Assembly: GCF_010731295.1 (NCBI RefSeq)
Contig: NZ_AP022579.1
Span: 1,550,001-1,614,000, forward strand
Direction of reading: 5' to 3'
Length of the DNA stretch: 64,000 nucleotides
Source: Mycolicibacterium boenickei
Lineage (GTDB): Bacteria > Actinomycetota > Actinomycetes > Mycobacteriales > Mycobacteriaceae
The notes beneath the pieces are model-generated. The model was given only the letters and a program-made list of their open reading frames with translations. It made no database searches and was not told the origin of the DNA. A program made the position numbers and the translations under genes. The first letter of the stretch is position 1; the number at the start of each line of letters is the position of its first letter. Shown piece after piece: positions 8,017-54,252 of the stretch.

Positions 8017-9000
8017 ATGACCGGGGCATACGCGGCAAAACGGGTACTGCACCGAAGGACGAGCCTGGAGGCCGCGGCCTTGGGAATCGGCTGCCGGGTC
8101 GCCGTGAAGAACGTGATCCGCGCCTGGGCATTGCAACCGGACCTGGCGTGGCCGCTGCGGTCGATCGACCAAATCGTCGGCCTGCTCCCGAGCCGCCCCG
8201 CAGCATCGGTTGAGCCCCTGACATTGCCGAACTGCCCGGCGGAACTGATCCACGCACCCGGGACATCGGGGCGCAACGCGATCCTTTACTTGCACGGTGG
8301 GGCGTTCCTTACCTGTGGGCTCAACACCCACCGTGCTCTAGCTGCTCGATTGTCGGCTGCGGCAGACGCTTTGGTGCTCAACGTCGGCTACCGGATGTTG
8401 CCTGCGTGCGGCCTTGCCGACGCGGTCGAGGATGCCCTGGCCGGATTGTCCTGGCTGCGGCGGCGGGGCTTCGGTGCGGAGCAGACGGTGATCGCAGGCG
8501 ACTCGGCGGGGGGATATCTTGCGTTCGGGACGGCGCTCAGGTCGTTGGCCCACGGTCTGCGTCCGGCAGCGGGCCTGGCCGCCATCTCACCGCTCATCGA
8601 CCTGGACCCAGCGCGGAAATTGGTTCACCGCAACATCTCTCGGTGTTCGATGTTCACCGGCCCGGCGCTGTCGGCCTTTGCCCGATGCGTGCGGCGTAGC
8701 CAGTGCCAGTCGAGCCGGTGCGAGGCCGAGCCGCTGATCGATCCGGCGACGGCCGATCTGACCGGCATGCCTCCGGTGATGATTCACGTCGGCGCCGACG
8801 AATTGCTGTTGGCCGACTCGGAATTGGTGGCCGATCGGCTGGCCCACGCGCATTCGTCCTGCGAGCTGCACGTCTGGAGCGGCCAGGTGCACGACTTCCC
8901 GCTCGCCGCCGACATTCTGCCGGAAGGCCGGCGGGCCATCGGCTACCTGGGCGACTTCGTCAAAGGCGTGACTACCGCACCTGCTCAGATCGCGGCCTGA
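8017..9000 (+). CDS. alpha/beta hydrolase, hormone-sensitive-lipase type
   Basis: 327-residue esterase/lipase-like protein. The oxyanion motif HGGAF and the nucleophile elbow GDSAGG are in the order and spacing of the HSL (abhydrolase_3) family. The catalytic acid and His would be in GADELLLADS and GQVHDFPL. The substrate is unknown; mycobacterial relatives hydrolyse short- to medium-chain esters. The ATG at 8017 is preferred over 8008 because AGGAG at 8003-8007 is 9 nt upstream of it. It stands alone, divergent from udgX with a 79-nt gap. Confidence 0.85.
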   Translation: MTGAYAAKRVLHRRTSLEAAALGIGCRVAVKNVIRAWALQPDLAWPLRSIDQIVGLLPSRPAASVEPLTLPNCPAELIHAPGTSGRNAILYLHGGAFLTCGLNTHRALAARLSAAADALVLNVGYRMLPACGLADAVEDALAGLSWLRRRGFGAEQTVIAGDSAGGYLAFGTALRSLAHGLRPAAGLAAISPLIDLDPARKLVHRNISRCSMFTGPALSAFARCVRRSQCQSSRCEAEPLIDPATADLTGMPPVMIHVGADELLLADSELVADRLAHAHSSCELHVWSGQVHDFPLAADILPEGRRAIGYLGDFVKGVTTAPAQIAA

Positions 9001-9051
9001 CCCGCCTTCCCGAGGGGTTTCCCGTGGCGCCGCCGCGGGCATCCCCACCTC

Positions 9052-9333
9052 ATGAGCGATATCGAGAACGGACCGGATGACACGCTGTCGCCGAGTGAGT
9101 CGACCGATTCCGACGAGGTCGCCAATGCTGATGGCGACGATGTGGTCGATCCGCCCGAGCATTGGCACGGCGCGGATCGCGCGGATGAGCCGGAATCGCT
9201 CGAGAGCAAGCTCGATGCGGAACGGCCCGACCGTCTGGCGGGGCAGGCACCTGCGCGCGACGTCGACGAGGCGATCGCCGAGCGTGAGGGCTTTCAGATT
9301 GTCAGCCCCGACGACGAGTCTCAAGACGGCTGA
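9052..9333 (+). CDS. small acidic hypothetical protein (DUF5709-like)
   Basis: 93 residues, very acidic and poor in hydrophobic residues, probably disordered. The order of short motifs (DDTLSPSES, DDVVDPPEHW, ESLESKLDAERPD) resembles the actinobacterial DUF5709 proteins of unknown function. No enzyme motif, signal peptide or membrane helix. It follows the hydrolase by 51 nt and could be co-transcribed. The family link is tentative. Confidence 0.6.
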   Translation: MSDIENGPDDTLSPSESTDSDEVANADGDDVVDPPEHWHGADRADEPESLESKLDAERPDRLAGQAPARDVDEAIAEREGFQIVSPDDESQDG

Positions 9334-9359
9334 GAATCGCACGCAGGGGCTATTTGTAG

Positions 9360-10127
9360 TCAGCCGGCCTGACGTTGCAGCGTGACCGAGGCGGTATTGG
9401 CATCGGCGTGGGTGGCGATGCCGCTGCCCTTCGCCGTGACCGCCAGCGCCGTGCGGTCCCCGCGGAACAGGTCGCGGGAGAACTCGCACGGCGAGCCGTT
9501 CTGGTCGTAGGTGACGCGAGTGATCAACAGCAGTGCCGCTTTGGGCTTGATGCCAAGCAGCGTGGCTTCGCTGCTGGTCGCGCTGACCGCCTCGATGCGC
9601 TCGTCGGCCCGGCCGGTGACCAAACCGTATCGGGATTCCAGGATTTCGTAGAGGGAGCCGCCCAGCTGCTGGTCGAGCAGGCCGGGAAACGCATCGGCGG
9701 GGAACTGTGCGTGTTCGAGCGAGATCGGGGAGCCGTCGGCCAGCCGGACGCGTTGGATCTCGATGACGTAGTCGCCCGGGCCCAGGCGCAGGGCGGTCTT
9801 GGTGGCGTCGTCGGGGGTGGTGATGCGCGTCGAGAGCACCCGCGTCCCCGCGACGTACCCCTGATTGGCCAGGAAGGCCGGCACACCGACCACGTCGGAC
9901 AGGTGGCGCTCCACCTGCCCGTGGCTGATGAAGATGCCACCGGCCCGGCCGATCACCCGGTGCACCAGGCCGGCTTCCTCCAATGCGGCCAGGACCTGCC
10001 GCAGGCTGGAGCGGCTGGTGCCGTAGCGTTCGGCCAGGTCGCGCTCACTGCCGAGTTTGGCACCGGGAGTGCCCGCGTTGATGTCGGCGACGATGCGCCT
10101 GCGCAACTCCTCGCTGTGAACTGCCAC
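9360..10127 (-). CDS. GntR/HutC-family regulator of the microcompartment locus
   Basis: 255 residues from GTG 10127, which has AGGGGG about 5 nt upstream; the open frame upstream of it overlaps the SDR gene and is not coding. The N-terminal GntR winged helix (LGSERDLAERYGTSRSSLRQVLAALEEAGLV) is followed by a UTRA ligand-binding domain (about 90-240, QRVRLADGSPISLEHAQF). It is the last gene of the leftward microcompartment operon. A candidate operator lies just upstream (10147-10161), with a close copy in the main divergent promoter (17312-17326), so it probably controls both itself and the locus. The ligand is likely a pathway amine or aldehyde (inference). Confidence 0.88.
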   Translation of the reverse strand: MAVHSEELRRRIVADINAGTPGAKLGSERDLAERYGTSRSSLRQVLAALEEAGLVHRVIGRAGGIFISHGQVERHLSDVVGVPAFLANQGYVAGTRVLSTRITTPDDATKTALRLGPGDYVIEIQRVRLADGSPISLEHAQFPADAFPGLLDQQLGGSLYEILESRYGLVTGRADERIEAVSATSSEATLLGIKPKAALLLITRVTYDQNGSPCEFSRDLFRGDRTALAVTAKGSGIATHADANTASVTLQRQAG

Positions 10128-10146
10128 CCCGGCCCCCTGCCCGTGT

Positions 10147-10161
10147 ATTGGTACAGCCAAT
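10147..10161. promoter_or_regulatory. candidate GntR operator 1
   Basis: ATTGGTACAGCCAAT: perfect 5-bp arms (ATTGG / CCAAT) and a 5-nt centre, 20 nt upstream of the GTG of the GntR gene and just after the SDR stop. It matches operator 2 at 17312-17326 at 12 of 15 positions. This suggests autoregulation through an internal promoter. Confidence 0.6.
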
Positions 10162-10176
10162 TCTATCCAGGTTGAA

Positions 10177-10956
10177 CTAGAGTTCAGCGATCGCCATGTG
10201 AGATTCGGGCAGAATCTGTCCGCCGTCCACGACCAGCGACTGACCGGTGATGTAGGCGGCTTCGTCGGTGGCGAAGAACAGCGCGGCGTTGCCGATGTCG
10301 GCGACCGATCCCAGCCGGCCGGCAGGAACTGCCGACGCCATTTGGTCCATGTAGTCCTGGCCCATTTCCACCAGGCCCTCGGTGACGATGTTGCCCGGCA
10401 GCACGGCGTTGACGGTGATCTTCTTGGGGGCGAGTTCCATCGCGGCGGTGCGCAGGAAGCCGAGCTGGGCGGCCTTGGACGCACCGTAGTGCGACCAGCC
10501 GGGGTAGCCGGTGACCGGACCGGTGATCGACGAGGTGATGACGACGCGTCCGCGTCCGCTGGCGGTCAGGGCGGCGAGGGCGGCCTGCACGATGTAGACG
10601 GTGCCCTTGAAGTTCACCGCCAGGACCTGGTCGATGTCGTCGGGGGTGAGGTCCTCCAGCCGGCCGGAGGGGAAGATGCCGGCGTTGGCACAGACGATGT
10701 CCAGCCCGCCGTGCCGCTCGACGGCGGCGTCGACGACCTGGCGGGCGTCGTCGGGACTGGTCACGTCCGCGCGCAGGGCACTGACCCGGCCGGGGGTGTC
10801 GGCAAGCGCCGTGACCGCGTCGTCGAGGTCAGACTGGTTGCGCCCGGTGATGAGGACGTCCACGCCGGCGTTGGCGAACGTCTGGGCAATGCCGCGGCCG
10901 ATGCCCTTGCTGCCGCCGGTGACGATGGCCGAGCGGCCCTGAAGCGATGCGAACAT
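10177..10956 (-). CDS. SDR dehydrogenase, probable 1-amino-2-propanol dehydrogenase
   Basis: 259-residue classical short-chain dehydrogenase: TGGSKGIG cofactor motif (13-20), NAG (91-93), Ser142/143, and Tyr157-x3-Lys161 in YGASK. In the Rhodococcus/Mycobacterium microcompartment (RMM) the equivalent SDR interconverts aminoacetone and 1-amino-2-propanol with NAD(H). The same role is inferred here from its place directly downstream of the kinase and shell genes. It has no obvious encapsulation peptide, so it may act at or outside the shell. An 18-nt gap separates it from the kinase. Confidence 0.85.
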
Positions 10957-10973
10957 ATTGAATCCTTCGAGTG

Positions 10974-11966
10974 TCAGGTCAAGGTGAGGCCGTTGGAGCG
11001 CAGATAGCGCTCGGCGAGTTCACAGCTGCCGGCGGCGTAGCTGATGGCCTTGGTGGCCGATTCGCGGGAGTGGCTGTGGCTGCCCATCCAGGCCAGCAGC
11101 AGCAGCCTGCGCAGTAGCACGAACGAGGCCAGCATGTCCTCGTCGGAAGCGGGCAGGTTGCGGCGGGTGCGGTAGCCGCGCACCCAGGCGTCTTGCCACT
11201 CCGGAAGTGCCGGGTCATCTTCGATGAACGACACTGCGGTGCCGAAATCGTAGAAGTACCAGCCGAATCCGCAGTCATCGAAGTCGATGACGGTGATGCC
11301 CGACCCCGCCGGGTCGGGGTCCACCAGCAGGTTGGCCAGACGCAGGTCAGCGTGGATCAGGCCGTAGACGTCGGGGCCCGTGCCGTAGGCGTGTAGCCGA
11401 TCGTGCAGCAGCGCCTGGGCGCGCTCCAGCACTTGTTGCTCGGCGGTGCCGACGCCTTCGGCGTCGTGCCAACGGCCCCAGCGTCCGGCCGCGCCCAGGC
11501 TGTGCTCCCAGTCCCACGAGAACCGGCCGAACCCGGCCGGGCGTTCCCACCGCTGCGAATGATCGTGCAGTGCAGCGGTGATCCGGCCCAGCGTGTGGAA
11601 ATCGTCGAGGGTCAACGTGCCCTCGTCGGGCTCGGCCCCGGCGACCATGCCGAAATGCACGGCATAGCGGTCGGTTCCATCGGCGTTGACCGTGACGAGG
11701 CGACGTCCGTCCCGGGTGGGCAGGACGTTCGGAACCGTGACATCACTGTCGGCGCGTAGCGCCGCCAGCCAGTCCAGCTCCGACTCGATCTCGTGGGGCT
11801 GGTGATAGTTCTGCCGGTGCACCCGCAGGATGGACTGGGTGCCGGCATCCTCGACGAGATAGGTGGCGTTCTCGGACAGGTTCAGCAACCGCAGCGTCGC
11901 GTCCGTCCCGATGTCGTACTGGCGTAGCGCCAGTTGGGCGACATCGATCTCGTCGGTGATAACCAT
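10974..11966 (-). CDS. APH/choline-kinase-like aminoalcohol kinase
   Basis: 330 residues, aminoglycoside-phosphotransferase fold. The Brenner motif is IHADLRLAN (His205, Asp207, Asn212) and the metal-binding Asp is in VIDFDD (Asp229). In the RMM model this enzyme phosphorylates 1-amino-2-propanol, preparing it for elimination by the class III PLP enzyme to give propionaldehyde. Here that role is inferred from context. Its ATG overlaps the stop codon of the BMC-T gene by one base (11966), which points to coupled translation. Confidence 0.82.
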
Positions 11967-12628
11967 TAGTGATCCCGTCCTTCAATCCCATCCAGCACCG
12001 CCGTGATCCGATCCCGGGCCACAGTGACATCCGCGGTGCTGCCACCGATGTAGAGCCTCCCAGCGGCGCCGATCATCTGCACGTCAACCACAGTAAGTCC
12101 AGGTGCGGCCCGCTCGGCCTCATTGGCCGCCACCGCTGCGAACAGCGCCGGGGTCATCTCGTAGACCAGCAGCGACTGTCCGGGCAGGATCATCGATGCC
12201 TGCCGGTTGCGGTTGAGGATCACCGCGTGCTGATCGGTGATGTTCTCGATGATGTCGTGGTAGAGCACCCGCGGCCGGAGCTGATCGGAGGCCTTGTTGC
12301 CGGTGCCCGCCAGGATCGCCTCGCCGGCCCGCTGCACGTCCTCGAGGTTGGCCGAGTGGATCTCGAGCACCCCGAATTGGCGTTCCACGTAGAGGATTCC
12401 GGGCTGGATACCGGGGACCTCACGCAGGGCCAGGTCGATCACCCGCTCGATCGCCAAGGCGGGGGACACCTCGACGATCAGCGCGTGTTCACCCTCGTAC
12501 GGTGGGTAACCCCGGGCCCGGGTCGGTGTTCCGAGGTAGGCGGCGAACTGGCGCTGCAGATCCTCCACCAACAGGTAGACGCGGATCTGGGTGCGAATCC
12601 GCGTGCTCTCCTCAGCTTTGGTCGGCAT
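11966..12628 (-). CDS. BMC-T tandem-domain shell protein
   Basis: 220 residues with two BMC domains in tandem, about 25-110 and 120-210. The second ends with the conserved segment IGAAGRLYIGGSTADV, close to IGATGRVYLSGTEADV in the paralogue at 13772. Tandem-domain proteins form pseudohexameric trimers that tile the shell facets and often have gated pores. An N-terminal ~20-residue extension (KAEESTRIRTQIRVYL) is longer than in the paralogue. It lies 2 nt downstream of the BMC-H gene. Confidence 0.88.
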   Translation of the reverse strand: MPTKAEESTRIRTQIRVYLLVEDLQRQFAAYLGTPTRARGYPPYEGEHALIVEVSPALAIERVIDLALREVPGIQPGILYVERQFGVLEIHSANLEDVQRAGEAILAGTGNKASDQLRPRVLYHDIIENITDQHAVILNRNRQASMILPGQSLLVYEMTPALFAAVAANEAERAAPGLTVVDVQMIGAAGRLYIGGSTADVTVARDRITAVLDGIEGRDH

Positions 12629-12630
12629 GG

Positions 12631-12912
12631 CTACTTGCTGGCGACCGAGAAGTGCGCGCCGAGCTCGTTGTGCGGACGCGGGATGACGTGCACGCTGACC
12701 AGTTCGCCCACCTGCGAGGCGGTCTCGGCGCCGGCCTCGGTGGCGGCCTTGACCGCACCCACCTCACCGGTGACGATCACGGCGACCAGGCCGTCGCCGA
12801 CCTGCTGGCGATCGGTGATGGTGACGTTGGCGGCCTTGACCATGGCGTCGGCGGCGGCCAGTGCGGCGACGAAGCCCTTGGTCTCGATCAGTCCGATTGC
12901 GTTGCTGGACAT
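12631..12912 (-). CDS. BMC-H hexameric shell protein
   Basis: 93 residues, canonical single BMC domain (PduA/CcmK type): MSSNAIGLIETKGFVAALAAADAM start region, then VTGEVGAVKAATEAG and the VSVHVIPRPH strand. Six copies form the basic facet tile. The loop VTGEVGAV lies where the central pore residues are expected, so pore chemistry differs from the KIGSG loop of PduA. It is the only BMC-H gene in the locus, so it is presumably the main facet component with the two BMC-T proteins. Confidence 0.95.
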   Translation of the reverse strand: MSSNAIGLIETKGFVAALAAADAMVKAANVTITDRQQVGDGLVAVIVTGEVGAVKAATEAGAETASQVGELVSVHVIPRPHNELGAHFSVASK

Positions 12913-12924
12913 GGGTGTTTCTCC

Positions 12925-13188
12925 TTATTTGTTGGGGTTGGTGTCGGGTTTGACGTCGATGGATCCGATGATGAGAGCGTCGACCGGAGGCGGGGTGCCG
13001 GTGAACCAGCCCGAGGCCACCGAGCCCTGGGCGACGAGGACGTGCTCGCCCACGCCACTGCCGAGGACGTCGAAGGCGATGAGCTTCGATCCGCTGCCGT
13101 CGATCTCGACCTCGAGGAACGCTCCGGCCGGGATGCCGTCGATCCGACGGGTAGACCACACGTTGCCGGTGACAACCGCTGAAATCAT
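12925..13188 (-). CDS. BMC-P pentameric vertex protein (EutN/CcmL type)
   Basis: 87 residues of the EutN/CcmL family: start ISAVVTGNVWSTRR, then LIAFDVLGSGVGEHVLVAQGS and the VDALIIGSID end strand. Pentamers cap the 12 vertices, so little of it is needed compared with BMC-H. The gene is preceded by a tandem repeat in which the AAGGAG ribosome-binding site occurs four times; the last copy, 5 nt from the ATG, is the one that fits this start. That arrangement may lower or buffer its expression. Confidence 0.93.
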   Translation of the reverse strand: MISAVVTGNVWSTRRIDGIPAGAFLEVEIDGSGSKLIAFDVLGSGVGEHVLVAQGSVASGWFTGTPPPVDALIIGSIDVKPDTNPNK

Positions 13189-13190
13189 TT

Positions 13191-13287
13191 GCGCTCCTTC
13201 GTCGCTCGGGCCATCATGTGCGCTCCTTCGTCGCTCGGGCCATCATGTGCGCTCCTTCGTCGCTCGGGCCATCATGTGCGCTCCTTC
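13191..13287 (-). repeat. 29-bp tandem repeat forming a chain of mini-ORFs before the BMC-P gene
   Basis: Three perfect 29-bp copies (13191-13219, 13220-13248, 13249-13277) and a 10-bp partial fourth (13278-13287). Read leftward, each unit carries AAGGAG followed by ATGATG and a 10-codon ORF, MMARATKERT, ending in TGA. The 33-nt ORFs overlap by ATGA, so each stop meets the next start. The final codons of the upstream gene (EKERT then TGA) are the same sequence, so the unit looks like a duplication of that gene end with its ribosome-binding site. The third copy overlaps the end of the upstream gene. Confidence 0.9.
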
Positions 13288-13775
13288 TCAATCGTGATGC
13301 CCAGAGTGCGGGCCTTTTCGCGGGCCAGCGGGGTCAGCACCGCCTTGCGACCGAGCACGAGCGTGCCTCCGGCCATGTCGGCGATGTGCCGCTCGGTGAC
13401 GGCACCGGATTCGATGCGTCGGCTGGCACCGCCGCCGGCTCCGCGGGTGGCCCCGGCCAGCCGGAAGCTCAGCCGCCCGGCCTTCAGGTCCGCACGGGTC
13501 TTCGGGCTTTCGAAGAGCCGCAACAGCTTTCGGACGAAGTTGTCGAGGTCTCGGTCATTGGCCAACTGCACGGTCTCGGTGCGGTTCTTGCCCTCGACAG
13601 CGCGGGGGCCGGTGGGGTCCACGCCGAACTGGTCGGCGATCGTCGGCGGGGCCGGGGCCGGCGGCGGGGGGACAGCCACCGGCCCCGGAGTCCTGGTGGC
13701 GGCTCCGAAATCCTTGACCGCCTCCCGCACCACCTCACGCACCAGGACGCGCAGTTCGTCCCTGTTGATGCTCAT
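13272..13775 (-). CDS. microcompartment-locus protein of unknown function, possible cargo or scaffold
   Basis: 167 residues in three parts. The N-terminal amphipathic helix (INRDELRVLVREVVREAV, about 3-20) looks like an encapsulation peptide and resembles the C-terminal helix of the aldehyde dehydrogenase at 14382. A Pro/Ala-rich linker spans about 30-48. A basic C-terminal region (about 60-167) ends in LTPLAREKARTLGITIEKE, a segment seen at domain ends of several microcompartment proteins (EutQ/PduL surroundings). No catalytic motif recognised. It overlaps the BMC-T gene upstream by 4 nt. I infer a lumen protein tethered to shell or enzyme. Confidence 0.7.
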   Translation of the reverse strand: MSINRDELRVLVREVVREAVKDFGAATRTPGPVAVPPPPAPAPPTIADQFGVDPTGPRAVEGKNRTETVQLANDRDLDNFVRKLLRLFESPKTRADLKAGRLSFRLAGATRGAGGGASRRIESGAVTERHIADMAGGTLVLGRKAVLTPLAREKARTLGITIEKERT

Positions 13776-14377
13776 GCAGTGGCCCTCGCCAGCGCGTCCT
13801 GGGCCGCCTCGGCCGCCGTACGGACATCGGCTTCGGTGCCGGACAGGTAGACGCGGCCCGTGGCGCCGATCATCCGGAAGTCGACAACCTTGATGTCCGC
13901 TGCCTTCTCGGCTTCGTTGGTGGCCAGGATGGCGTAGGACGCCGGGGCCACCTCGAGCACGAACAGTGACTCACCCGGCAGCACCATCGAGCCGATCTTG
14001 TTGCGGTTGATCAGGAACGCGTGCTGGTGGTCGACGCTGGAGATGATGCGCGAGGCCAGCACGTTCGGCTGTACCGCGCTTCCGGTGTTGCCACCGAGTT
14101 CGTCCAGTGCGGCGTCGGCGGCCGCCTTGACCGCGCCGGTTTCGCCGTGGAACTCCAGGTAGCCGAACTGCCGCTCTACCACCAGGATTCCGGCCTTGAC
14201 CTCAGCATGCTTGAGGGCGACGTCGGTGACGCCCTCGATGTCCAGACCGGGTGCCACCTCGATGATCTGGGCGGCCTGGTTGGCGCGGGGGAGCGCGCCC
14301 TTGATCCAGGTGCCTAGATACGACATGGTCTGCGGTTGCAGCCGGTCGATGAAGATGAAGGAACGAAGTTCAGCCAC
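13772..14377 (-). CDS. BMC-T tandem-domain shell protein, first copy
   Basis: 201 residues with two BMC domains (about 5-95 and 105-195). It is closely related in layout to the BMC-T at 11966, including the near-identical segments ILVVERQFGYLEFHG (versus ILYVERQFGVLEIHS) and VVDFRMIGATGR. It lacks the N-terminal extension of the other copy. It lies 4 nt downstream of the aldehyde dehydrogenase stop and overlaps the next gene by 4 nt. Having two BMC-T types with one BMC-H fits the RMM class of shell. Confidence 0.88.
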   Translation of the reverse strand: MAELRSFIFIDRLQPQTMSYLGTWIKGALPRANQAAQIIEVAPGLDIEGVTDVALKHAEVKAGILVVERQFGYLEFHGETGAVKAAADAALDELGGNTGSAVQPNVLASRIISSVDHQHAFLINRNKIGSMVLPGESLFVLEVAPASYAILATNEAEKAADIKVVDFRMIGATGRVYLSGTEADVRTAAEAAQDALARATA

Positions 14378-14381
14378 AGCC

Positions 14382-15935
14382 CTACCTCTTGATCAGTTGT
14401 GCGAGTTCTTCGGCGACCAGCGCGCGCAATTCGGCACGCAGTGCGTCCAGGCCCAGGTCGGTCGAGCGGGCCGGGGTGGACCGGCGCGGTGCTGTCCTGG
14501 CCTGAGCAGGCGTGCCGTTGCGGTCGTTGGAGGCGCGCGGATACTCCGGCACCGGTCCGGCCGGTGAGTGCCACGGGTTGATGCCCGCGAAGTTGCCCAT
14601 GGGTACGGCGGAATCGCTGTTGTAGGCGATGCGGGCCCAGTTGATCAGGTTCTGTGGTTGCAGGTTCTCCCCGATCGAGCTGCGCCCGACGAACCCGGTG
14701 CCGATCGTCATCGACGGCGCCAGGTTGGTGTCCAGCCCGGAACTTCCGGTGCTGTTGCCGACGTTGACCGACACTCGCAGCACCGGCACCTGGGCGGCGA
14801 AATCGGTGATCACCGAAGGATTCTCGCTGTGGATGGCCGCCGAGTGACCGGCCCCGCCGATCCGCACCACCGCCCGAGCAGCGCGGATGCCCCGTGCCGC
14901 GTCGGCGGCCGTGGTCATGCCGAGTACCGGGGACAACTTCTCGTGCGCCAGCATCTCCTCGGCGATCACGTCGTTGAACGGCGCGATCAACACCCGGGTC
15001 TTGGGCGTGACCCGCAGCCCGGCCTGCCCGGCGATCCAGGCGGCGTCGCGGCCCACCACGTCGGTGTTGAGGTGGCCGTCGGCGAACATGTAGGCCCGCA
15101 GCCGTCGTGCGCCGTCCTCGTCGAGGATGTGCGCACCGGCGCGGGTCAGCGCACCGTTGAGCTTGCCGGCGATCGCGTCCTCGGCGATCAGGACCGATTC
15201 GTTGGTGCACAGCACCGAGTTGTCGAAGGCCTTGCTGTCCACGATGCGCTTGGCCGCGGCGTTGATGTCGGCACTGGCCTCGACGAACACCGGGACATTG
15301 CCCGGTCCGACCCCGAGTGCGGGGTTGCCGGACGAGTAGGCGGCCCGCACGACCCCGGTGCCCCCGGTCGCCACGATGACGTCGGTGCGATCGTCGGCCA
15401 TGAGCGCCTGTACGAGCGGGATCGACGGTTCCTCGACCACCTGGACGATGCCGTCCGGCGCACCGGCCGCCACCGCCGCCTCGGCGAGCAGCCGGGCCGC
15501 ATCGGCCGAGCACTGCTTGGCGCGCGGGTGCGGGGCGACCACGACGGCGTTGCGCGTCATCAGTGCCAGGATCACCTTGAAGTACACCGTGGCAACGGGA
15601 TTGGTGGTCGGCGTCAGTGCCAGCACCACCCCCGCGGGCCGGGGCAGCTCGACGATCTTGCTGGCTTCGTCGACGCGCGGCGACACAAAATCTTCGCCCC
15701 GGTAGTAGTCGACGATGCCGCGCGAGCAGGCCCGGTTCTTGGTGACCTTGTCGGCCACCACGCCCATCCCGGTCTCGGCCACCGCCTCTGCGGCGAACCG
15801 CTCGGCTGCCGAGTAGGCGGCGTCGGCCACCGCGTTGACGATCTCGGTTACCGCGGCCGCGTCGTAATCGGCGTATGCCGCCGCGGCCCACCCGGCCCGC
15901 TCCAGCATGTGGCCGGCCTGTGCGGTACTGGTCAT
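14382..15935 (-). CDS. CoA-acylating aldehyde dehydrogenase with encapsulation helix
   Basis: 517 residues, PduP/EutE-like. The signature TPTTNPVATVYFK (108-120) and the catalytic Cys243 in SVLCTNES are typical of acylating, CoA-linked enzymes, which would turn propionaldehyde into propionyl-CoA. After a linker rich in Ala, Pro, Arg and Thr (about 462-490), the last ~27 residues form an amphipathic helix (LDALRAELRALVAEELAQLI). This is the usual C-terminal position of an encapsulation peptide in related systems. The start overlaps the stop of the class III PLP enzyme by 4 nt. This enzyme is the most secure lumen cargo and identifies the locus as an aldehyde-handling compartment. Confidence 0.9.
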   Translation of the reverse strand: MTSTAQAGHMLERAGWAAAAYADYDAAAVTEIVNAVADAAYSAAERFAAEAVAETGMGVVADKVTKNRACSRGIVDYYRGEDFVSPRVDEASKIVELPRPAGVVLALTPTTNPVATVYFKVILALMTRNAVVVAPHPRAKQCSADAARLLAEAAVAAGAPDGIVQVVEEPSIPLVQALMADDRTDVIVATGGTGVVRAAYSSGNPALGVGPGNVPVFVEASADINAAAKRIVDSKAFDNSVLCTNESVLIAEDAIAGKLNGALTRAGAHILDEDGARRLRAYMFADGHLNTDVVGRDAAWIAGQAGLRVTPKTRVLIAPFNDVIAEEMLAHEKLSPVLGMTTAADAARGIRAARAVVRIGGAGHSAAIHSENPSVITDFAAQVPVLRVSVNVGNSTGSSGLDTNLAPSMTIGTGFVGRSSIGENLQPQNLINWARIAYNSDSAVPMGNFAGINPWHSPAGPVPEYPRASNDRNGTPAQARTAPRRSTPARSTDLGLDALRAELRALVAEELAQLIKR

Positions 15936-17212
15936 GATGCTTTACGTCCTCTCACGACGGTCTCGGCCCTGGCCACCGCGACGGCGAGGCGGTCCAGGAC
16001 GTCCTCGCAGAGCTCGCGCGAGAGCAGCAGACCCGGTTTGAATTGCAGGACACGGGGATCCAGTGTCGAGAAGATCGCCCACACGCCGTTCTCGTAGAGT
16101 TCCCGCATCACGAACTTGGCGCCTTCTGGGTGATCGAACTCCAGACCGATCACCACGCCGTTCTGCCGGATGCCGACGAACCAGTCCGGATGGTCGGCCT
16201 GGATGCGCTGCAGCCCGTGGTCGAAGATGTCGGCGATGTAGTGCACCATCGAGCGCACTTCCGGCCGGGTGGAGATTTCGAGTGTCTTCAGCGCGGCGAC
16301 GCAGCCCAGCTCGGCGCCGCCGAACGTGGAGATATGGCCGAAGCCGTCCTCATCGAGCCACTTCGCAGCGCGATCGCTGAGCAGCGCCGCGGTGATCGGG
16401 TACATGCCGCCGGACAGGCCCTTGCCCGTCACCAGGATGTCGGGCTCGATGCCGTGTTTGGTGATGCACCACAGTTCACCGGTGCGCATCAGACCGGTCT
16501 GCACCTCATCGGCGATGTACAGGGTCCCGTGCTTCTCGGTGATGGCCTTGACGGCTTCCAGGTAACCCGGTGCGGGAAGCGGGAATCCGTAGGTGGCCGG
16601 GATGGTCTCCATGATCACCGCGGCGACATCGCCAGGTGCCAGTACCCGTTCCATCGCCTCGATGTCGTTGAACGGCACCTGGAGGAACTCGTCGGGCTGG
16701 TCGGCCAGGAAGAACTTGGCGAACCGGTCGTCGCCGGTGGCCACGGCCAGGCCGGTGTGGCCGTGGTAGGCCTTGACGATCGAGACGATCTTGCGGCGTT
16801 TGGTGGCGTGCCGGGCGCTCTTGAGCGCGATGTCTATCGCCTCACCGCCTCCTGACCCGTACGCCACCTTGGTGATCGACGCCGGCGCGGTCTCGACCAG
16901 GCGCTGCGCCAGTGCGGTGCGGGCCACCGACGGGAAGTGATGGTTTCCGACGTCGAAATGCTCCATTCCGTCGGTAATCGCCTGCATCACTTCGGGATTG
17001 CGGTGCCCGAGGTTGTAGGTACCGCCGTTGAGGTGCAGATCGATCAGGCGGCGGCCGCCCATGTCCCACAGGAAATATCCCTCGCGGCGGTCGATCACCA
17101 GATCGACACCGGTATCAGTCCAGAACTGTGTCTTGTCTGGATTCCAGAACGTCTTCGCCTTGTCCAGCACTTCGGCTTTGGACTCGAACGTGAACGTGCC
17201 GTAGTCGTACAT
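15932..17212 (-). CDS. class III PLP enzyme, probable aminoalcohol-phosphate phospho-lyase
   Basis: 426 residues, class III aminotransferase fold: YGSGGGEAIDIALK (118-131), AYHGHTG (148-154), Asp235 in IADEVQTG and the PLP-Lys264 in TGKGLSGGMYP. In the RMM pathway the enzyme at this place is thought to act as a phospho-lyase on phosphorylated 1-amino-2-propanol, releasing propionaldehyde, ammonia and phosphate. A plain transaminase cannot be excluded from sequence. First gene of the leftward operon. GGAGAGGGAG lies upstream of the ATG, and the 183-bp divergent promoter contains two palindromes. Confidence 0.85.
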   Translation of the reverse strand: MYDYGTFTFESKAEVLDKAKTFWNPDKTQFWTDTGVDLVIDRREGYFLWDMGGRRLIDLHLNGGTYNLGHRNPEVMQAITDGMEHFDVGNHHFPSVARTALAQRLVETAPASITKVAYGSGGGEAIDIALKSARHATKRRKIVSIVKAYHGHTGLAVATGDDRFAKFFLADQPDEFLQVPFNDIEAMERVLAPGDVAAVIMETIPATYGFPLPAPGYLEAVKAITEKHGTLYIADEVQTGLMRTGELWCITKHGIEPDILVTGKGLSGGMYPITAALLSDRAAKWLDEDGFGHISTFGGAELGCVAALKTLEISTRPEVRSMVHYIADIFDHGLQRIQADHPDWFVGIRQNGVVIGLEFDHPEGAKFVMRELYENGVWAIFSTLDPRVLQFKPGLLLSRELCEDVLDRLAVAVARAETVVRGRKAS

Positions 17213-17266
17213 GCGGCTCCCTCTCCAGCTATCCGGTAGCTGTGATGGGCCTCACCGTAAACGGTC

Positions 17267-17290
17267 GCAACCATTTATGTCAATGGTTGC
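17267..17290. promoter_or_regulatory. palindrome in the microcompartment divergent promoter
   Basis: Perfect 9-bp arms GCAACCATT (17267-17275) and AATGGTTGC (17282-17290) with a TATGTC centre. It lies 55-78 bp upstream of the PLP-enzyme start. It differs from the GntR-type repeat at 17312, so it may bind a second regulator or overlap the promoter. Confidence 0.5.
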
Positions 17291-17311
17291 AGGAAGTGCT
17301 TGCCAATCGGT

Positions 17312-17326
17312 TTTGGTAGTGCCAAT
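17312..17326. promoter_or_regulatory. candidate GntR operator 2
   Basis: TTTGGTAGTGCCAAT, 12 of 15 positions identical to operator 1 at 10147, with TTGG and CCAA at the same spacing. It sits between the divergent permease (start 17396) and the microcompartment operon (start 17212), where a single site could control both. Confidence 0.6.
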
Positions 17327-17395
17327 ATACGTAGGTCCGTCTGTGGCCCAGGCCACATCGGGCATCCCACTGTTACCTGGAAGGTATCCCGCTAG

Positions 17396-18931
17396 ATGAC
17401 CGATCAAGCTGTCGCCGGGAGTGAAGACACAGCTCACGACGTCCAGAGACTGAAACGCAACGCCGTCGGCACTGTCGGCGTCATCTTCATGGCGGTGGCT
17501 ACCGCCGCCCCGATCACGGCAATGGTCGGCAACGTCCCGATTGCCGTCGGCTTCGGAAATGGTTCGCATGCGCCGGCCGGCTACATCGTCGCAACCGTTG
17601 TCCTCGGCCTCTTCGCCGTCGGCTACGCGACCATGGCCAAGCACATCACGACCACCGGCGCTTTCTACGGTTACATCTCCCACGGGCTGGGCCGCATCGT
17701 CGGGATGGCCAGCGGCGGTTTGATCACCATGGCCTACGTGGTGTTCGAGGCCTCCTTGATCGGGATCTTCTCGTTCTTCTTCCAGAACTTCATGCAATCC
17801 CAACTGGGCATCCACATCCACTGGGTGATCCCGGCACTGCTGATGCTGGTCACCAACGCGATCCTCACCTACTTCGACGTCAACCTGACCGCCAAGGTGC
17901 TCGGCGTGTTCCTGGTGACCGAGATCGTCATGCTCGCCCTCGGCGCGCTGGCGGTGCTGTTCAGGGGCGGCGGCCCGCAGGGCTTCGCGGTCGCCGAGAC
18001 GATCAACCCCATCGGGGCCTTCTCGCCGGCAGCCGGAATCGCCGGTGCCAGTGCCGGATTGGGCCTGTTCTTCGCCTTCTGGTCGTGGGTCGGCTTCGAA
18101 TCGACCGCGATGTACGGCGAGGAGTCGCGTAACCCGAAGAAGATCATCCCCCGGGCCACGATGCTGAGTGTCGTCGGAGTCGGGCTGTTCTACGTGTTCG
18201 TGTCCTGGATGGCGATCGCCGGTACCGGCCCGCAGCGTGCAGTGGAACTCGCGCAGGATTCGGCCACGTCCTCGGAGATCTTCTTCGGGCCGGTGCGTGC
18301 CACCTACGGCGAATGGGCGATCACGATGTTCAACATCCTGCTGGTCACCGGGTCATTCGCCTGCGGCATGGCGTTCCACAACTGTGCCTCGCGTTACCTG
18401 TACGCGCTCGGTCGCGAAGGCCTGTCCAAGGGGCTGCAGAAGACCATCGGCTCAACGCATCCCACGCACGGATCGCCCTACATCGCTTCGTTCGTGCAGA
18501 GCGCGATCACGCTCGTGATCATCCTGTCGTTCCTGTTCGCCGGGATGGATCCCTACGTGCACATGTACACGCTGCTGGCGATCCTGGGCACCATGGCGAT
18601 CCTGATCGTGCAGTCGCTGTGCGCCTTCTCGGTGATCAGCTACTTCCACATCCGCAAGAACCACCCGGTGTCCAAGCACTGGTTCAAGACGCTGATCGCC
18701 CCCGGGTTGGGCGGGATCGGCATGCTCTACGTCGTGTACCTGCTGTGGGAACACAAGGATGCGGCCGCGGGGACGGCCTCGGGCACCCTGCTGTTCAAGC
18801 TGACCCCGTGGATCGTGGTGGGAATCTTCGTCCTGGGCGCGAGCATGGCCACCTACTTCAAGCTGCGCGACCCGCGCCGCTACGAGTTGATCGGCCGGAT
18901 CGTGTTCGAGGACAACGTTGTTCGAGACTAG
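17396..18931 (+). CDS. APC-superfamily amino acid/amine permease
   Basis: 511-residue inner-membrane transporter with about 12 hydrophobic helices. The first carries the APC signature region (GTVGVIFMAVATAAPITAMVG). It is transcribed away from the microcompartment operon across a shared promoter, as in other RMM loci. Its likely job is uptake of the substrate amine (aminoacetone, 1-amino-2-propanol or a related compound; inference). GGAAGG lies about 11 nt upstream of the ATG. The small gene at 18932 begins directly after the stop. Confidence 0.88.
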   Translation: MTDQAVAGSEDTAHDVQRLKRNAVGTVGVIFMAVATAAPITAMVGNVPIAVGFGNGSHAPAGYIVATVVLGLFAVGYATMAKHITTTGAFYGYISHGLGRIVGMASGGLITMAYVVFEASLIGIFSFFFQNFMQSQLGIHIHWVIPALLMLVTNAILTYFDVNLTAKVLGVFLVTEIVMLALGALAVLFRGGGPQGFAVAETINPIGAFSPAAGIAGASAGLGLFFAFWSWVGFESTAMYGEESRNPKKIIPRATMLSVVGVGLFYVFVSWMAIAGTGPQRAVELAQDSATSSEIFFGPVRATYGEWAITMFNILLVTGSFACGMAFHNCASRYLYALGREGLSKGLQKTIGSTHPTHGSPYIASFVQSAITLVIILSFLFAGMDPYVHMYTLLAILGTMAILIVQSLCAFSVISYFHIRKNHPVSKHWFKTLIAPGLGGIGMLYVVYLLWEHKDAAAGTASGTLLFKLTPWIVVGIFVLGASMATYFKLRDPRRYELIGRIVFEDNVVRD

Positions 18932-19177
18932 ATGGACTCGTTCGACCGCGTGTTACTGAAGTTCGTCCTCGCGTGGGCTCCCTATGGGGGTCCGCGCGAG
19001 GACGACGTTTGGCTGGAGTTCGGGATGACCGCCGAGCAGCTGTGTGTCCGGTTCGCCCGGATCGTGTCGGGTCAGATCCCCAGGGTCAGGGCCTTGTCGG
19101 CCGCCGACCGCTGCCTGCTGGAACGCGCCTGCCGGTACCTGCGACACCAGCGAGAGTCAGGCGAACGCCGCGCGTAG
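18932..19177 (+). CDS. small hypothetical protein (DUF3263-like pattern)
   Basis: 81 residues. The ATG directly follows the permease TAG (TAGATG), so translation is likely coupled. The pattern RVLLKFVLAWAPYGGPREDDVWLEFGMTAEQL loosely resembles the helix-turn-helix-like actinobacterial DUF3263 proteins; the link is weak. No membrane helix. The 3' end overlaps the convergent lipW by 21 nt. Function unknown. Confidence 0.6.
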   Translation: MDSFDRVLLKFVLAWAPYGGPREDDVWLEFGMTAEQLCVRFARIVSGQIPRVRALSAADRCLLERACRYLRHQRESGERRA

Positions 19178-28288: not shown

Positions 28289-29134
28289 TTATCGGATCGG
28301 TTCGTCGCCGAGCACGGTGGTGCGCAGCATGTGGCGGGGTGAGTTGGGTTCGTAGGGCGCAGCGCGGTGCAGGACTCCCTGGTTGTCCCAGATGACGGTG
28401 TCGCCGACGGACCATTTGTGGCGGTACACCTTGTCGGGTGTGGTGGCGTGGGCGAGGAGTTCGGCCAGCAGTGCGCGGCCCTCATCGAGATCCATGCCGA
28501 CGATGTGATCCGCTGAAGCACCCAGCACCAAGGACTTTCGTCCGCTTCGGTGCGTCCACACCAGCGGGTTTTCGTGCGTCGGCCGGGCGGCCCAGCGCTG
28601 CCGTTGCTCGGGTGTGGGGTCGGGGTAGACGCGCCGTTGCGACGCCTCGAGCGAATGCACCACCCGCAGGCTGCCGTAGAGCTCCTTCTCGGCTTCGGTG
28701 AGGGACTCGTAGGCGGCGTAGGCGTTGGCGAACTCGGTTTCCCCTCCGCGGGCGGCGACCTCGACGGCTGACAGTATCGTCGCCTTTTGGGGGCATTCGT
28801 CGTGCATGGGAGTGCAGCCGTCGATATGCCAGTCGAATGTGGCCTTGAGGTATTCGGCGGCCTTGTTCTTCGTCCGGTCCAGGGTGATCGGGTAGATGCC
28901 CGAGACAGGATGGTGGCCGTCCGCGGAGCGATCGATCTCGCCGAGCCGCTGGGAGAACGCCACCTGGGCTTCGGGATTCAGGTGCAGGCCGTGGAAGACC
29001 AGCACACCGTTGTCTTCGAGCGCGTCCAGCACGGCCGCGCCCAGGCTGTCGTCGGTGCCCAGGCGCTCGGGGTCGACGCCGACGACCTCGGCGCCCACCG
29101 ACGAGGTCAGCTTGTTGATGGTCAACACACTCAC
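28289..29134 (-). CDS. TauD/TfdA-type 2-oxoglutarate dioxygenase
   Basis: 281 residues. The iron ligands are in FDWHIDGC (HxD) and the distal His in GVLHRAAPY. The 2-oxoglutarate-binding Arg is in RHMLRTTVLG near the C-terminus. All expected residues are present. Family members hydroxylate sulfonates, phenoxyacids, alkyl sulfates or other substrates using Fe(II) and 2-oxoglutarate. The substrate here is not readable. GTG start with GAGAGGAC upstream. It lies 28 nt after the small Rieske-associated gene and is probably in the same transcript. Confidence 0.88.
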   Translation of the reverse strand: MSVLTINKLTSSVGAEVVGVDPERLGTDDSLGAAVLDALEDNGVLVFHGLHLNPEAQVAFSQRLGEIDRSADGHHPVSGIYPITLDRTKNKAAEYLKATFDWHIDGCTPMHDECPQKATILSAVEVAARGGETEFANAYAAYESLTEAEKELYGSLRVVHSLEASQRRVYPDPTPEQRQRWAARPTHENPLVWTHRSGRKSLVLGASADHIVGMDLDEGRALLAELLAHATTPDKVYRHKWSVGDTVIWDNQGVLHRAAPYEPNSPRHMLRTTVLGDEPIR

Positions 29135-29162
29135 GGGTACGTCCTCTCGTGTTCGGTGCCGG

Positions 29163-29498
29163 TCACGGCCGGGGCTCTCCGGTGCGGATCATGACAGCGT
29201 CGGCGGAATCGGTCGGGGCGGGTTGGTGCATGATCTCCACTGACATTGCGACCATGATCAGCGAATAGATCAGGTACAGCAGGTTCAGCGCATCGTCGGG
29301 CAGGTCGTCGAGGGAGAATTTGTCGCAATACTCGATCGCCTCCTCTATGCGAGGGAAGAAGGCGTCGTGGAACTCGTGCATTTCGGGCATGGTGCTGGCC
29401 AGGCGACGCTCCCAGCGTTCGGTCTCCGTTGGCAGACACCAGATCTCGGCGTAGGGCTCCAGTTCGGAGAAGGCACTCGGCAGTCGGGGCGAGGTCAT
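29163..29498 (-). CDS. small Rieske-associated protein, copy 1
   Basis: 111 residues, no known domain. It is a clear paralogue of the protein at 35748: both contain ERRLASTMPEMHEF / KRLASTMTEMQAF and CDKFSLDDLPDDALNLLY / CDKFSLDDLPEDVLNLMH. Predicted mostly helical, with a hydrophobic segment near YLIYSLIMVAMSV. The start overlaps the stop of the Rieske gene by 4 nt, so the two are translated together. It occupies the place where a ring-hydroxylase beta subunit would be, but is too short and unlike one. I propose a dedicated partner of the oxygenase. Confidence 0.7.
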   Translation of the reverse strand: MTSPRLPSAFSELEPYAEIWCLPTETERWERRLASTMPEMHEFHDAFFPRIEEAIEYCDKFSLDDLPDDALNLLYLIYSLIMVAMSVEIMHQPAPTDSADAVMIRTGEPRP

Positions 29499-45938: not shown

Positions 45939-47312
45939 CTAGCGCAGCACCGCACCCGGATTGAGGATGCCCTGTGGGTCCAGGGCGTCCTTGATCCGGC
46001 GGGTCAGCGCGATCACGTCGTCACCGAGTTGTAGTGGCAGCCAATCTCTTTTGAGCCGGCCGATGCCGTGCTCGCCGGTGATGGTGCCACCCATGGCAAT
46101 CGCCAGTTCCATGACCCGGGCGAACGCCACCCGGGCCCGCTCGCTCATGTCCGGATCGTCGGCATCGAATATCACCACCGGGTGCGTGTTTCCGTCGCCG
46201 GCGTGGGCGACGACGCAGATCAACACGTCGCAGTCCTCGGCGATGCGCTTGATGCCGGCCACCAGCTCGGGCAGGTCGGGGATGGGCACGGTGACGTCCT
46301 CGAGGTAGAACGTGCCCAGTTGCATCAGGGCCAGGCCCACCAGGCGCCGGGCCGCGGTGAACGCTGCGCCCTCTTCGGGGTCGTCCGTTGCGTAAACCTC
46401 GGTGGCCCCGGACTTCTCGCAGGCCTCGACGATGTGGGCGATCTCCTCGGCGGCAGCGCCCGGTGCATCGGATTGCACCAGCAGCATCGCCTCTGCCGAG
46501 CGGTCCAGACCCATCCGCCGGTAGTCCTCGACCGCGTTGATGGTGGCGTGGTCCATGAGTTCCAGCATGGCCGGCCGCACCTTCTCGGTGATGGCCACCA
46601 CCGCGTCGGCGGCGTCCTGCACCGAGCCGAACAGCGCGACCGCTGTCGACGCCGGGGGCTGAGCCGGGATCAGCCGCAGGGTGAGCTCGGTGATCACGCC
46701 GAGGATGCCTTCGGAACCGACGAACAGCTTCGTCAAGGACAGCCCGGCAACATCTTTCAAGCGTGGGCCGCCCAACCGGACCGCGGTGCCGTCGGCGAGT
46801 ACCACCTGCATGCCGAGCACGTAGTCGCTGGTGACCCCGTACTTCACACAGCACAACCCGCCGGCGTTGGTCGCCGCGTTTCCGCCGATCGAGGAGATCT
46901 CGACGGAGCCGGGGTCGGGCGGATACCACAGCCCGTGCTCAGCGGCAGCCTTCTTCACCTCGGAGTTCATCAGGCCGGGTTGCACCACGGCGGTGCGGCT
47001 CGCGGTGTCGATGCGGATGTCCCGCATCCGTTCGGTGCTGAGGATGATGCCGCCGTCGACCCCGTTGGCGCCACCGGCGAGACCGGATCCCGCACCTCGG
47101 GGCACCACGGGGACCCGGTGTGCGCTCGCCCAGCGCAGCACGGCCTGCACGTCCTCGGTGCTGCGGGCCCGCACCACGGCCAAGGCTCGGCCGGCCTCCG
47201 GGTCGAGCGCGGCGTCGCGGCGATAGCCCTCGATCACGGCGGGGTCGGTGATCACCGCATGGTCGGGCAGCTGGGCCGCGAGTGCGGCGAGCTCGGCGTC
47301 CGGAGTGGACAT
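45939..47312 (-). CDS. FAD-linked oxidase (GlcD / D-2-hydroxyacid dehydrogenase type)
   Basis: 457 residues. The PP-loop FAD-binding region is VVPRGAGSGLAGGANG, then SIGGNAATNAGG and the C-terminal cap with HAGDGNTHPVV and ITGEHGIGRLKRDWL. The family oxidises glycolate, D-lactate or other D-2-hydroxyacids with FAD. No Fe-S subunit gene is adjacent, so it may be the single-chain D-lactate dehydrogenase type. It stands 10 nt from the end of the lipO-like gene and could be at the end of that operon. Confidence 0.87.
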   Translation of the reverse strand: MSTPDAELAALAAQLPDHAVITDPAVIEGYRRDAALDPEAGRALAVVRARSTEDVQAVLRWASAHRVPVVPRGAGSGLAGGANGVDGGIILSTERMRDIRIDTASRTAVVQPGLMNSEVKKAAAEHGLWYPPDPGSVEISSIGGNAATNAGGLCCVKYGVTSDYVLGMQVVLADGTAVRLGGPRLKDVAGLSLTKLFVGSEGILGVITELTLRLIPAQPPASTAVALFGSVQDAADAVVAITEKVRPAMLELMDHATINAVEDYRRMGLDRSAEAMLLVQSDAPGAAAEEIAHIVEACEKSGATEVYATDDPEEGAAFTAARRLVGLALMQLGTFYLEDVTVPIPDLPELVAGIKRIAEDCDVLICVVAHAGDGNTHPVVIFDADDPDMSERARVAFARVMELAIAMGGTITGEHGIGRLKRDWLPLQLGDDVIALTRRIKDALDPQGILNPGAVLR

Positions 47313-53624: not shown

Positions 53625-54252
53625 CCCCGGGTACCCCGTTCCGTCGGACGAATTCCCTTGACTTGATCAGGAATTCGAGTTGCCGGGCGACGTCGTGCAA
53701 CGGGTCGACCGACCGGGACGAGCGGCACAGCACCACAGCGCCTTCCAGGGTGGCGATGCACATCACCGCCAGGGAGGATGCGTCGGATTCGTCGAAACCG
53801 TCGGCGCTGAAGGCCGCGGTCAGCGCTGCACGCCAGCGGTCGAAGATGGCCGCGGCGGCAGCGGCGAGTTCAGGTTCTTCGTCCGGCGCGGCGATCGCGA
53901 CCGCGACCACCGGACAGCCTGCCGTGAAATCGCTTCCGGTGAGCACACGTTCCCAGAACTCGATGAATCGATGTACCAGATCCCATGCGCTGTCGGAAGA
54001 CTCGGCACCGATGATGCCGCCGATGGTGTTCGCGGCGAACTGGAGCGCCTCGGTCAGGATCTGACGGCGGCCGCCGGGGAAGTGGTGGTACACCGATCCG
54101 CGTGGTGCGCCGCTACGGGTCAGTACCTCGTCGATCGTGACACCGGCGGCGCCGCGCTCGCGCAGCACTTCGACCGCGCTGCCGAGCATGCGGGCACGAG
54201 TGGAGCCGCGCTTGTTCCGCGGCTTCGCGGCGGTGTCAGGCGACCCGGTCAT
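53605..54252 (-). CDS. TetR-family regulator
   Basis: 215 residues from ATG 54252. The TetR helix-turn-helix is in VLRERGAAGVTIDEVLTRSGAPRGSVYHHFPGGRRQIL (about 30-67), and the ligand domain resembles the LmrA/YxaF type (FTAGCPVVAVAIAAPDEEPEL). It overlaps the RibD-like gene convergently. The longer open frame upstream has no good start. Target unknown; the region to echA1 is a candidate. Confidence 0.85.
   Translation of the reverse strand: MTGSPDTAAKPRNKRGSTRARMLGSAVEVLRERGAAGVTIDEVLTRSGAPRGSVYHHFPGGRRQILTEALQFAANTIGGIIGAESSDSAWDLVHRFIEFWERVLTGSDFTAGCPVVAVAIAAPDEEPELAAAAAAIFDRWRAALTAAFSADGFDESDASSLAVMCIATLEGAVVLCRSSRSVDPLHDVARQLEFLIKSREFVRRNGVPGVSRPVP

Follow-up and report, generated by a model that had tools for sequence, protein, structure and literature searches.

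The window, i.e., the whole stretch of 64,000 nt analysed here, comes from a Mycolicibacterium boenickei genome of 6.59 Mb in two contigs and carries on its minus strand an operon for an RMM-type microcompartment, whose pathway we take to be that of aminoacetone. Read along that strand, the operon encodes a class-III aminotransferase (15932..17212), an acylating aldehyde dehydrogenase-like protein (14382..15935), a second BMC-T shell protein (13772..14377), a protein of 167 aa (P0001; 13272..13775), the BMC-P vertex protein (87 aa; 12925..13188), the BMC-H shell protein (12631..12912), a BMC-T-like shell protein (11966..12628), an APH-family kinase (10974..11966) and an SDR dehydrogenase (10177..10956). 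The gene set of an RMM operon is present, with shell genes of the BMC-H, BMC-P and BMC-T types as well as aminotransferase, aldehyde dehydrogenase, kinase and SDR genes. BMC-P and BMC-H matched the RMM shell proteins MSM0273 (PDB 5l37) and MSM0272 (PDB 5l38) of M. smegmatis, respectively. The BMC-H gene begins 12 nt past BMC-P and has its own AAGGAG; the BMC-T-like protein is CcmP-like, although under the model cut-off, and had no Pfam match; the kinase start overlaps the stop of this BMC-T gene (TAATG). Among the named records fetched, M. porcinum was the nearest, with 93.5-95.2% DNA identity across the operon, and the window belongs near the M. fortuitum group. A plasmid origin was rejected, as no plasmid match was obtained.

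The gene for the 167-aa protein, hereafter the upstream gene, is by its position presumably the counterpart of MSM0274, and its start overlaps the stop of the second BMC-T gene (ATGA). The protein has a conserved N-terminal LRxLVREVVRxAV helix, a Pro-rich linker and a conserved C-terminal domain, a pattern compatible with a shell-associated protein bearing an encapsulation-type helix; no matches to it were found in Pfam, NCBIfam or PDB. Its relatives adjoin BMC-P in other genera too. Two equal-scoring pairs of upstream gene and BMC-P lie 3.9 kb apart in a genome from another genus of the family (G608:C3:402671 and 406564; L109 and L114).

Three identical 29-nt units (AAGGAGCGCACATGATGGCCCGAGCGACG) join the upstream gene to BMC-P on the minus strand (13286-13258, 13257-13229 and 13228-13200), with a partial fourth copy (AAGGAGCGCAAATGAT) after unit 3. 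The perfect repeats with AAGGAG and ATGATG that an earlier note on this DNA had described were thus confirmed at 13200-13286, both motifs being present in every unit. AAGGAG lies at 13281-13286, inside the last codons of the upstream gene, and again at 13252-13257 and 13223-13228, while a fourth AAGGAG (13194..13199) is BMC-P's own Shine-Dalgarno-like sequence. Tandem Repeats Finder reported the array at 13184-13287 with a period of 29, 3.6 copies, 98% matches and a score of 201; the runner-up array of the window scored only 64. Two weaker short tandem repeats are present at 46649-46701 and 53800-53841.

Each of the three mini-ORFs (13243..13275, 13214..13246 and 13185..13217, all minus) consists of ten codons plus TGA and has an ATGA in common with its neighbours. 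The first starts on the TGA of the upstream gene, and the stop of the third overlaps the BMC-P start, so that ATGA is found at all four junctions and the array links the two genes at both ends, as had been suggested. The peptide MMARATKERT, previously given for all three, is encoded by mini-ORFs 1 and 2, whereas mini-ORF 3 reads MMARATKERK, and the BMC-P start reads ATGATT rather than the ATGATG described. The architecture for serial termination and restart stood as proposed, but the steps number four rather than three (from the upstream gene through mini-ORFs 1, 2 and 3 to BMC-P). The period is 29 because ten codons and a stop occupy 33 nt, of which 4 nt are shared with the neighbour, and a stop/start chain of this kind is possible only with a period of 2 mod 3. 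With up to three mismatches allowed, the unit was found at just these three sites in the 6.59-Mb genome (reversed control, 0). An assembly artefact is unlikely, because the array is only about 104 nt long in a contig of 6.56 Mb and relatives carry one or two near-identical units. A known structured RNA was also rejected, as Rfam gave no match in 9000-19000.

The junction was surveyed in the same genus by three overlapping draws of 248, 396 and 296 genomes, in which the upstream gene was found in 46, 76 and 66, respectively. Together they comprise 81 distinct genomes, one per species: the 76 of the second draw, M. senegalense (L083, identical with G710) and four that the third draw added. In one of these 81, G056, the homologue is merely a divergent one (44% identity), and this genome was kept in the counts but out of the tree; 17 of 18 separately fetched named loci duplicated surveyed genomes and were counted once. 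Further searches among relatives gave no extra genome with the locus. No insert was found in 63 of the 81 genomes, whose junctions differ in length by 0, 1 or 3 nt and among which is that of M. septicum, while 15, including M. porcinum and M. houstonense, carry one mini-ORF, M. senegalense two and the window three; in the remaining one, L031, an insert of 30 nt continues the upstream frame, a fusion by which the mini-ORF is lost and BMC-P still coupled. A separate mini-ORF is therefore absent in 64 of 81 genomes, and the repeat number does vary, as the earlier note had anticipated, here between species (0, 1, 2 or 3). In all 81 genomes BMC-P starts in overlap with, or directly next to, the preceding stop, the overlap being 0-8 nt (4 nt in 69, 7 in 8, 0 in 2, 1 in 1 and 8 in 1), with closure onto BMC-P by way of mini-ORFs in 17 and of the upstream-gene fusion in one. 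Shine-Dalgarno-like sequences precede the BMC-P start in 79 of 81.

The mini-ORFs have 7-11 codons (17 genomes). Peptides resembling MxARATKERx were found in several species, but the peptides are not kept across lineages (MMARATKERT, MIAPATKERT, MITEEPR, VTARPKGRT and MMAALEERK) while the architecture stays. M. smegmatis probably also has one such mini-ORF, because its BMC-P (MSM0273) is closest in sequence to those of L060 (79/85) and L017 (78/85), both with a 23-nt mini-ORF. Family- and class-wide searches provided 29 loci of other genera, six weak or partial matches (L110-L113, L115 and L138) being excluded; BMC-P was not found nearby in three of them, and no insert was present in any of the 26 in which it adjoins the upstream gene. 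The distance between the two genes did not exceed 8 nt in any of the 26 (22 overlap, one abuts and three have gaps of 2, 8 and 8 nt).

Insert lengths were 20, 23, 26, 28, 29, 30, 58 and 87 nt, the last two being two and three times 29. Of the 16 genomes with a single insert, 14 have one whose length is 2 mod 3 (20, 23, 26 or 29 nt), the exceptions being 28 and 30 nt; L012, with the 28-nt insert, departs from this rule yet keeps an overlap of 8 nt. Random inserts would close the chain 29.7% of the time, and after one random indel of 1-2 nt only 3.4% would still be closed. Compared with the first of these nulls, closure was seen in 10 of 11 lineages (p = 4e-5) and, when length families were taken instead, in all five (p = 0.002), although the nulls are crude, the lineages and families were sorted by hand, the lineages share ancestry, and the closure range of 0-8 nt was chosen after the junctions had been seen.

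For the history of the insert, a locus tree of 76 rows was built from the DNA of the upstream gene, BMC-P and BMC-H with the junction excluded; G056 and the four genomes of the third draw were left out. At least 11 changes of insert state occurred on this tree, nine of them forced by well-supported branches. Shuffled states gave a mean of 14.6-14.7 changes, and only one or two of 500 shuffles were as low as the observed value; the inserts are therefore also somewhat clustered on the tree. One clade holds the window (three units), M. porcinum (one) and M. senegalense (two). Gain and loss were indistinguishable on the tree, and the 29-nt unit could be an ancient one that has been lost on several occasions. 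In a comparison by hand of 12 unit types from a subset of genomes with two candidate sources, 11 resembled the BMC-P start and upstream tail of their own genome (z 2.5-5.4), the exception being that of L030 (z -0.6); against a 32-nt unit dispersed in these genomes the scores were -0.5 to 2.3 (L030, 2.1). Tandem copying of the gene junction would be the simplest origin, because the units resemble their own flanks more than the dispersed unit; the unit of L030 stays unexplained by it.

Similar mini-ORFs were sought elsewhere by a duplication-aware scan of 2.464 Mb of the window's genome (four 600-kb blocks and the window). Four copies of junctions were matched, of which one, at 3,763,589, is doubtful and three were accepted, i.e., the RMM array, a TetR/P450 junction and an ABM/SDR junction (all four genes confirmed by Pfam). 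A scan of 864 kb for any coupled mini-ORF mostly returned chance frames in GC-rich DNA. Within the window, an 11-codon frame, VTGTEHERTYP (29131-29166, minus), lies between two long frames with GTGA on both sides. The TetR/P450 junction (G000:C1 2208499-2208528, minus; L209 8499-8528) has a locally copied mini-ORF of nine codons, MSLSLGEDK, which repeats the end of TetR, LGEDK. In 30 genomes cut from 32 searched, this junction was without an insert in 17 and with one in 13 (0 to 3 units); 11 of the 13 insert chains were closed according to the script, and by eye L279 runs in frame into P450 and in L280 the second unit closes. The ABM/SDR junction has two units, MSACAKRRQHR and MSACAKRSQR, and when read by eye in 16 genomes (that of the window and 15 chosen from 31 relatives) showed none in five, one in three, two in five, three in two and five in one.

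The ABM/SDR unit is not local; it is the dispersed 32-nt unit (ATGAGCGCTTGCGCGAAGAGGAG..., MSACAKRRQHR). In the window's genome, with up to two mismatches, it has 16 copies at 12 loci (reversed control, 0), mostly at stop/start junctions: 511753, 1686712(-), 1855261, 2266211, 2343376, 2577429(-), 2765689(-) with four copies, 4601376(-), 5089403 with two, 5382896(-), 5438819(-) and 5848941 of G000:C1. At ten of the 12 loci the start lies on the stop of a frame 100 or more codons long, ten close onto such a frame and eight do both; for the 1161 other ATGAGC sites of the four blocks the corresponding numbers were 210, 66 and 13. Two loci do not close onto a long frame. Most copies end in a Shine-Dalgarno-like sequence. 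The unit was present in 59 of 98 same-genus genomes, with up to 53 copies. It was found at the P450 junction of M. aquaticum (L298), and two copies lie between the two P450-junction matches of G087. A further genome (G090:C12:339011-339231) has seven copies, with two mismatches each, at a spacing of 33 nt, which is 0 mod 3 and therefore allows no such stop/start chain. The unit also lies in the RMM operon of relatives, at the BMC-T/kinase junction, where a strict pattern detected 1-3 copies in six of 44 testable junctions (L006, L050, L051, L055, L057 and L016; three copies in M. houstonense and two in DL99) and none in the window; four more genomes (L018, L019, L024 and L052) have diverged copies recognised by eye.

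Several known systems are comparable with the array. Termination-reinitiation at ATGA overlaps in the textbook cases joins two genes in one step; each junction of the array likewise has the classical overlap and Shine-Dalgarno sequence, but up to four steps follow in succession. In the synthetic bicistronic design a short translated leader with an embedded Shine-Dalgarno sequence ends on the next start. The units of the array have the same layout, but they are of natural origin, occur in several copies and would receive their ribosomes from a gene before them. The mycobacterial interspersed repetitive units (MIRU) are tandem repeats of roughly 46-101 nt within operons, in which short ORFs start and stop on the stop and start codons of their neighbours and copy number varies. 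They were reportedly treated, with the senX3-regX3 repeats, by Supply et al. in 1997. As judged by layout, length and dispersal, the 29-nt array also consists of tandem repeats between operon genes with short ORFs overlapping neighbouring stop and start codons, but its unit falls outside that range of lengths, occurs at one locus only and is probably built from its own flanking genes. Dispersal is instead a feature of the 32-nt unit, which shares with the array the mini-ORF on stop/start junctions, the tandem arrangement (at 32 nt) and the variable number, and differs from it in being dispersed and in sequence. MIRU serve as markers by virtue of their variable tandem repeats, according to part of the text of Wirth (2008; PMC2528947). 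In an excerpt of Shell et al. (2015; PMC4633059), RTGA-coupled small ORFs are over-represented (23 of 220 leaderless small ORFs); the array's mini-ORFs agree with them in size (5-50 codons) and in a TGA forming RTGA with the next start, but those small ORFs begin leaderless transcripts, whereas the mini-ORFs of the array are tandem and placed between two long genes. Their position inside the operon argues against a leaderless-transcript start for them. Reinitiation, coupling, MIRU and ATGA all go unmentioned in the portion of Smith (2022; PMC9094748) consulted.

Based on the results of this study, the array is probably a tandem duplication of a coupled gene junction, in which a relay would preserve translational coupling while the copy number drifts. 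Other functions have to be weighed against this reading, which was favoured over that of a dedicated knob for pentamer dosage. In the latter, each stop and restart would lose ribosomes, and the copy number would lower BMC-P relative to BMC-H and set the pentamer:hexamer ratio. The differing copy numbers of such close relatives as the window, M. porcinum and M. senegalense, the closed chain and the position of the BMC-H Shine-Dalgarno sequence outside the chain are all consistent with it. However, 63 of 81 genomes are without the unit, like insertions of variable number stand before P450 and SDR genes without a known need for stoichiometry, and the strong AAGGAG on every copy may keep the loss per step small, so that dosage control is considered rather unlikely. 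The opposite effect, that a translated mini-cistron unfolds the next start and adds entry sites, thereby raising or steadying BMC-P, is distinctly unlikely, since BMC-P is coupled to a gene before it even where units are absent. In its favour, every unit embeds a Shine-Dalgarno sequence in a short frame whose end lies on the next start, the excerpted text of Shell (2015; PMC4633059) suggests that downstream initiation may be enhanced by RTGA-coupled small ORFs, and folding around the start is predicted to be weaker with the insert, at -51.5 kcal/mol on average over 150 nt as against -56.7 without it (p = 0.003, kinship ignored). The predicted accessibility of the start site itself, however, showed no difference between genomes with the insert and those lacking it (16 vs 61 genomes, p = 0.86, kinship ignored). 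Control through masking of the BMC-P start was rejected, as the predicted folding gave it no support.

The repeats could also be slippage DNA with no translational role, the ATGA arising by chance. The perfect identity of the copies suggests recent amplification, presence is patchy, and MIRU loci of the MTBC act as selectively neutral markers given enough loci, as stated in an excerpt of Wirth (2008; PMC2528947); yet closed chains are more frequent than inserts free of constraint would give, and even the frame-changed L031 is still coupled by fusion, which makes a silent minisatellite quite improbable. Descent from a mobile, MIRU-like family inserted at the BMC-P junction would accord with the 12 loci of the 32-nt unit in the same genome, with its presence at another junction of the RMM operon in relatives, and with its weak likeness to the 29-nt unit, which in L030 exceeds that of the flanks. 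Against it, the genome has no 29-nt unit outside the array; a search with the 15-nt core of the unit, which covered 15 of the 18 genomes with an insert, gave eight exact matches, all of them at this junction, while one-mismatch matches elsewhere numbered 11 vs 7 for the reversed control; and own flanks were the better match in 11 of 12 unit types. Such an insertion is very improbable. It is least probable, indeed scarcely credible, that the decapeptide itself acts, whether in signalling or in attenuation: peptides like MxARATKERx are shared by several species, but those of other lineages (MITEEPR, VTARPKGRT and MMAALEERK) are unrelated and the architecture is nevertheless kept.

Under the preferred reading of a duplicated, coupled junction, the start of BMC-P (ATGATxx..CAGCGAC) would have been copied and linked to the last part of the upstream gene (GAAGGAGCGCA), giving rise to a mini-cistron with its own Shine-Dalgarno sequence and a start on the upstream stop, which slippage could then have amplified to three copies in the window. 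On reaching the end of the upstream gene, ribosomes would begin anew at the ATG that overlaps its stop, aided by AAGGAG, translate ten codons, stop, and repeat this through mini-ORFs 1, 2 and 3 until BMC-P is reached; each AAGGAG may also load fresh ribosomes. Selection would keep the chain closed, with BMC-P starting on the stop of the frame before it, while the peptide sequence and the copy number could largely drift. The copy number would then be near-neutral and its effect on BMC-P modest at most. It is the passing of ribosomes to BMC-P that would be conserved, rather than how many steps lead there. A particular role in fixing the number of pentamers is possible, but is not favoured because like insertions also precede genes for P450 and SDR and the unit is missing from 63 of 81 RMM loci. 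A bolder generalisation, which we hold to be unlikely, is that such mini-cistrons are a class of expandable relays of mycobacterial operons, formed where junctions copy themselves or receive the dispersed 32-nt unit, whose number would be an evolvable setting of ribosome passage and in the RMM operon would fix the pentamers per shell.

These junctions present one and the same gene pair with 0, 1, 2 or 3 mini-ORFs in nature, and therefore the efficiency of repeated reinitiation and the tuning of operon stoichiometry become directly testable. Moreover, the comparable inserts at other junctions point to a wider habit of mycobacteria, in which mini-cistrons are built at coupled gene junctions.
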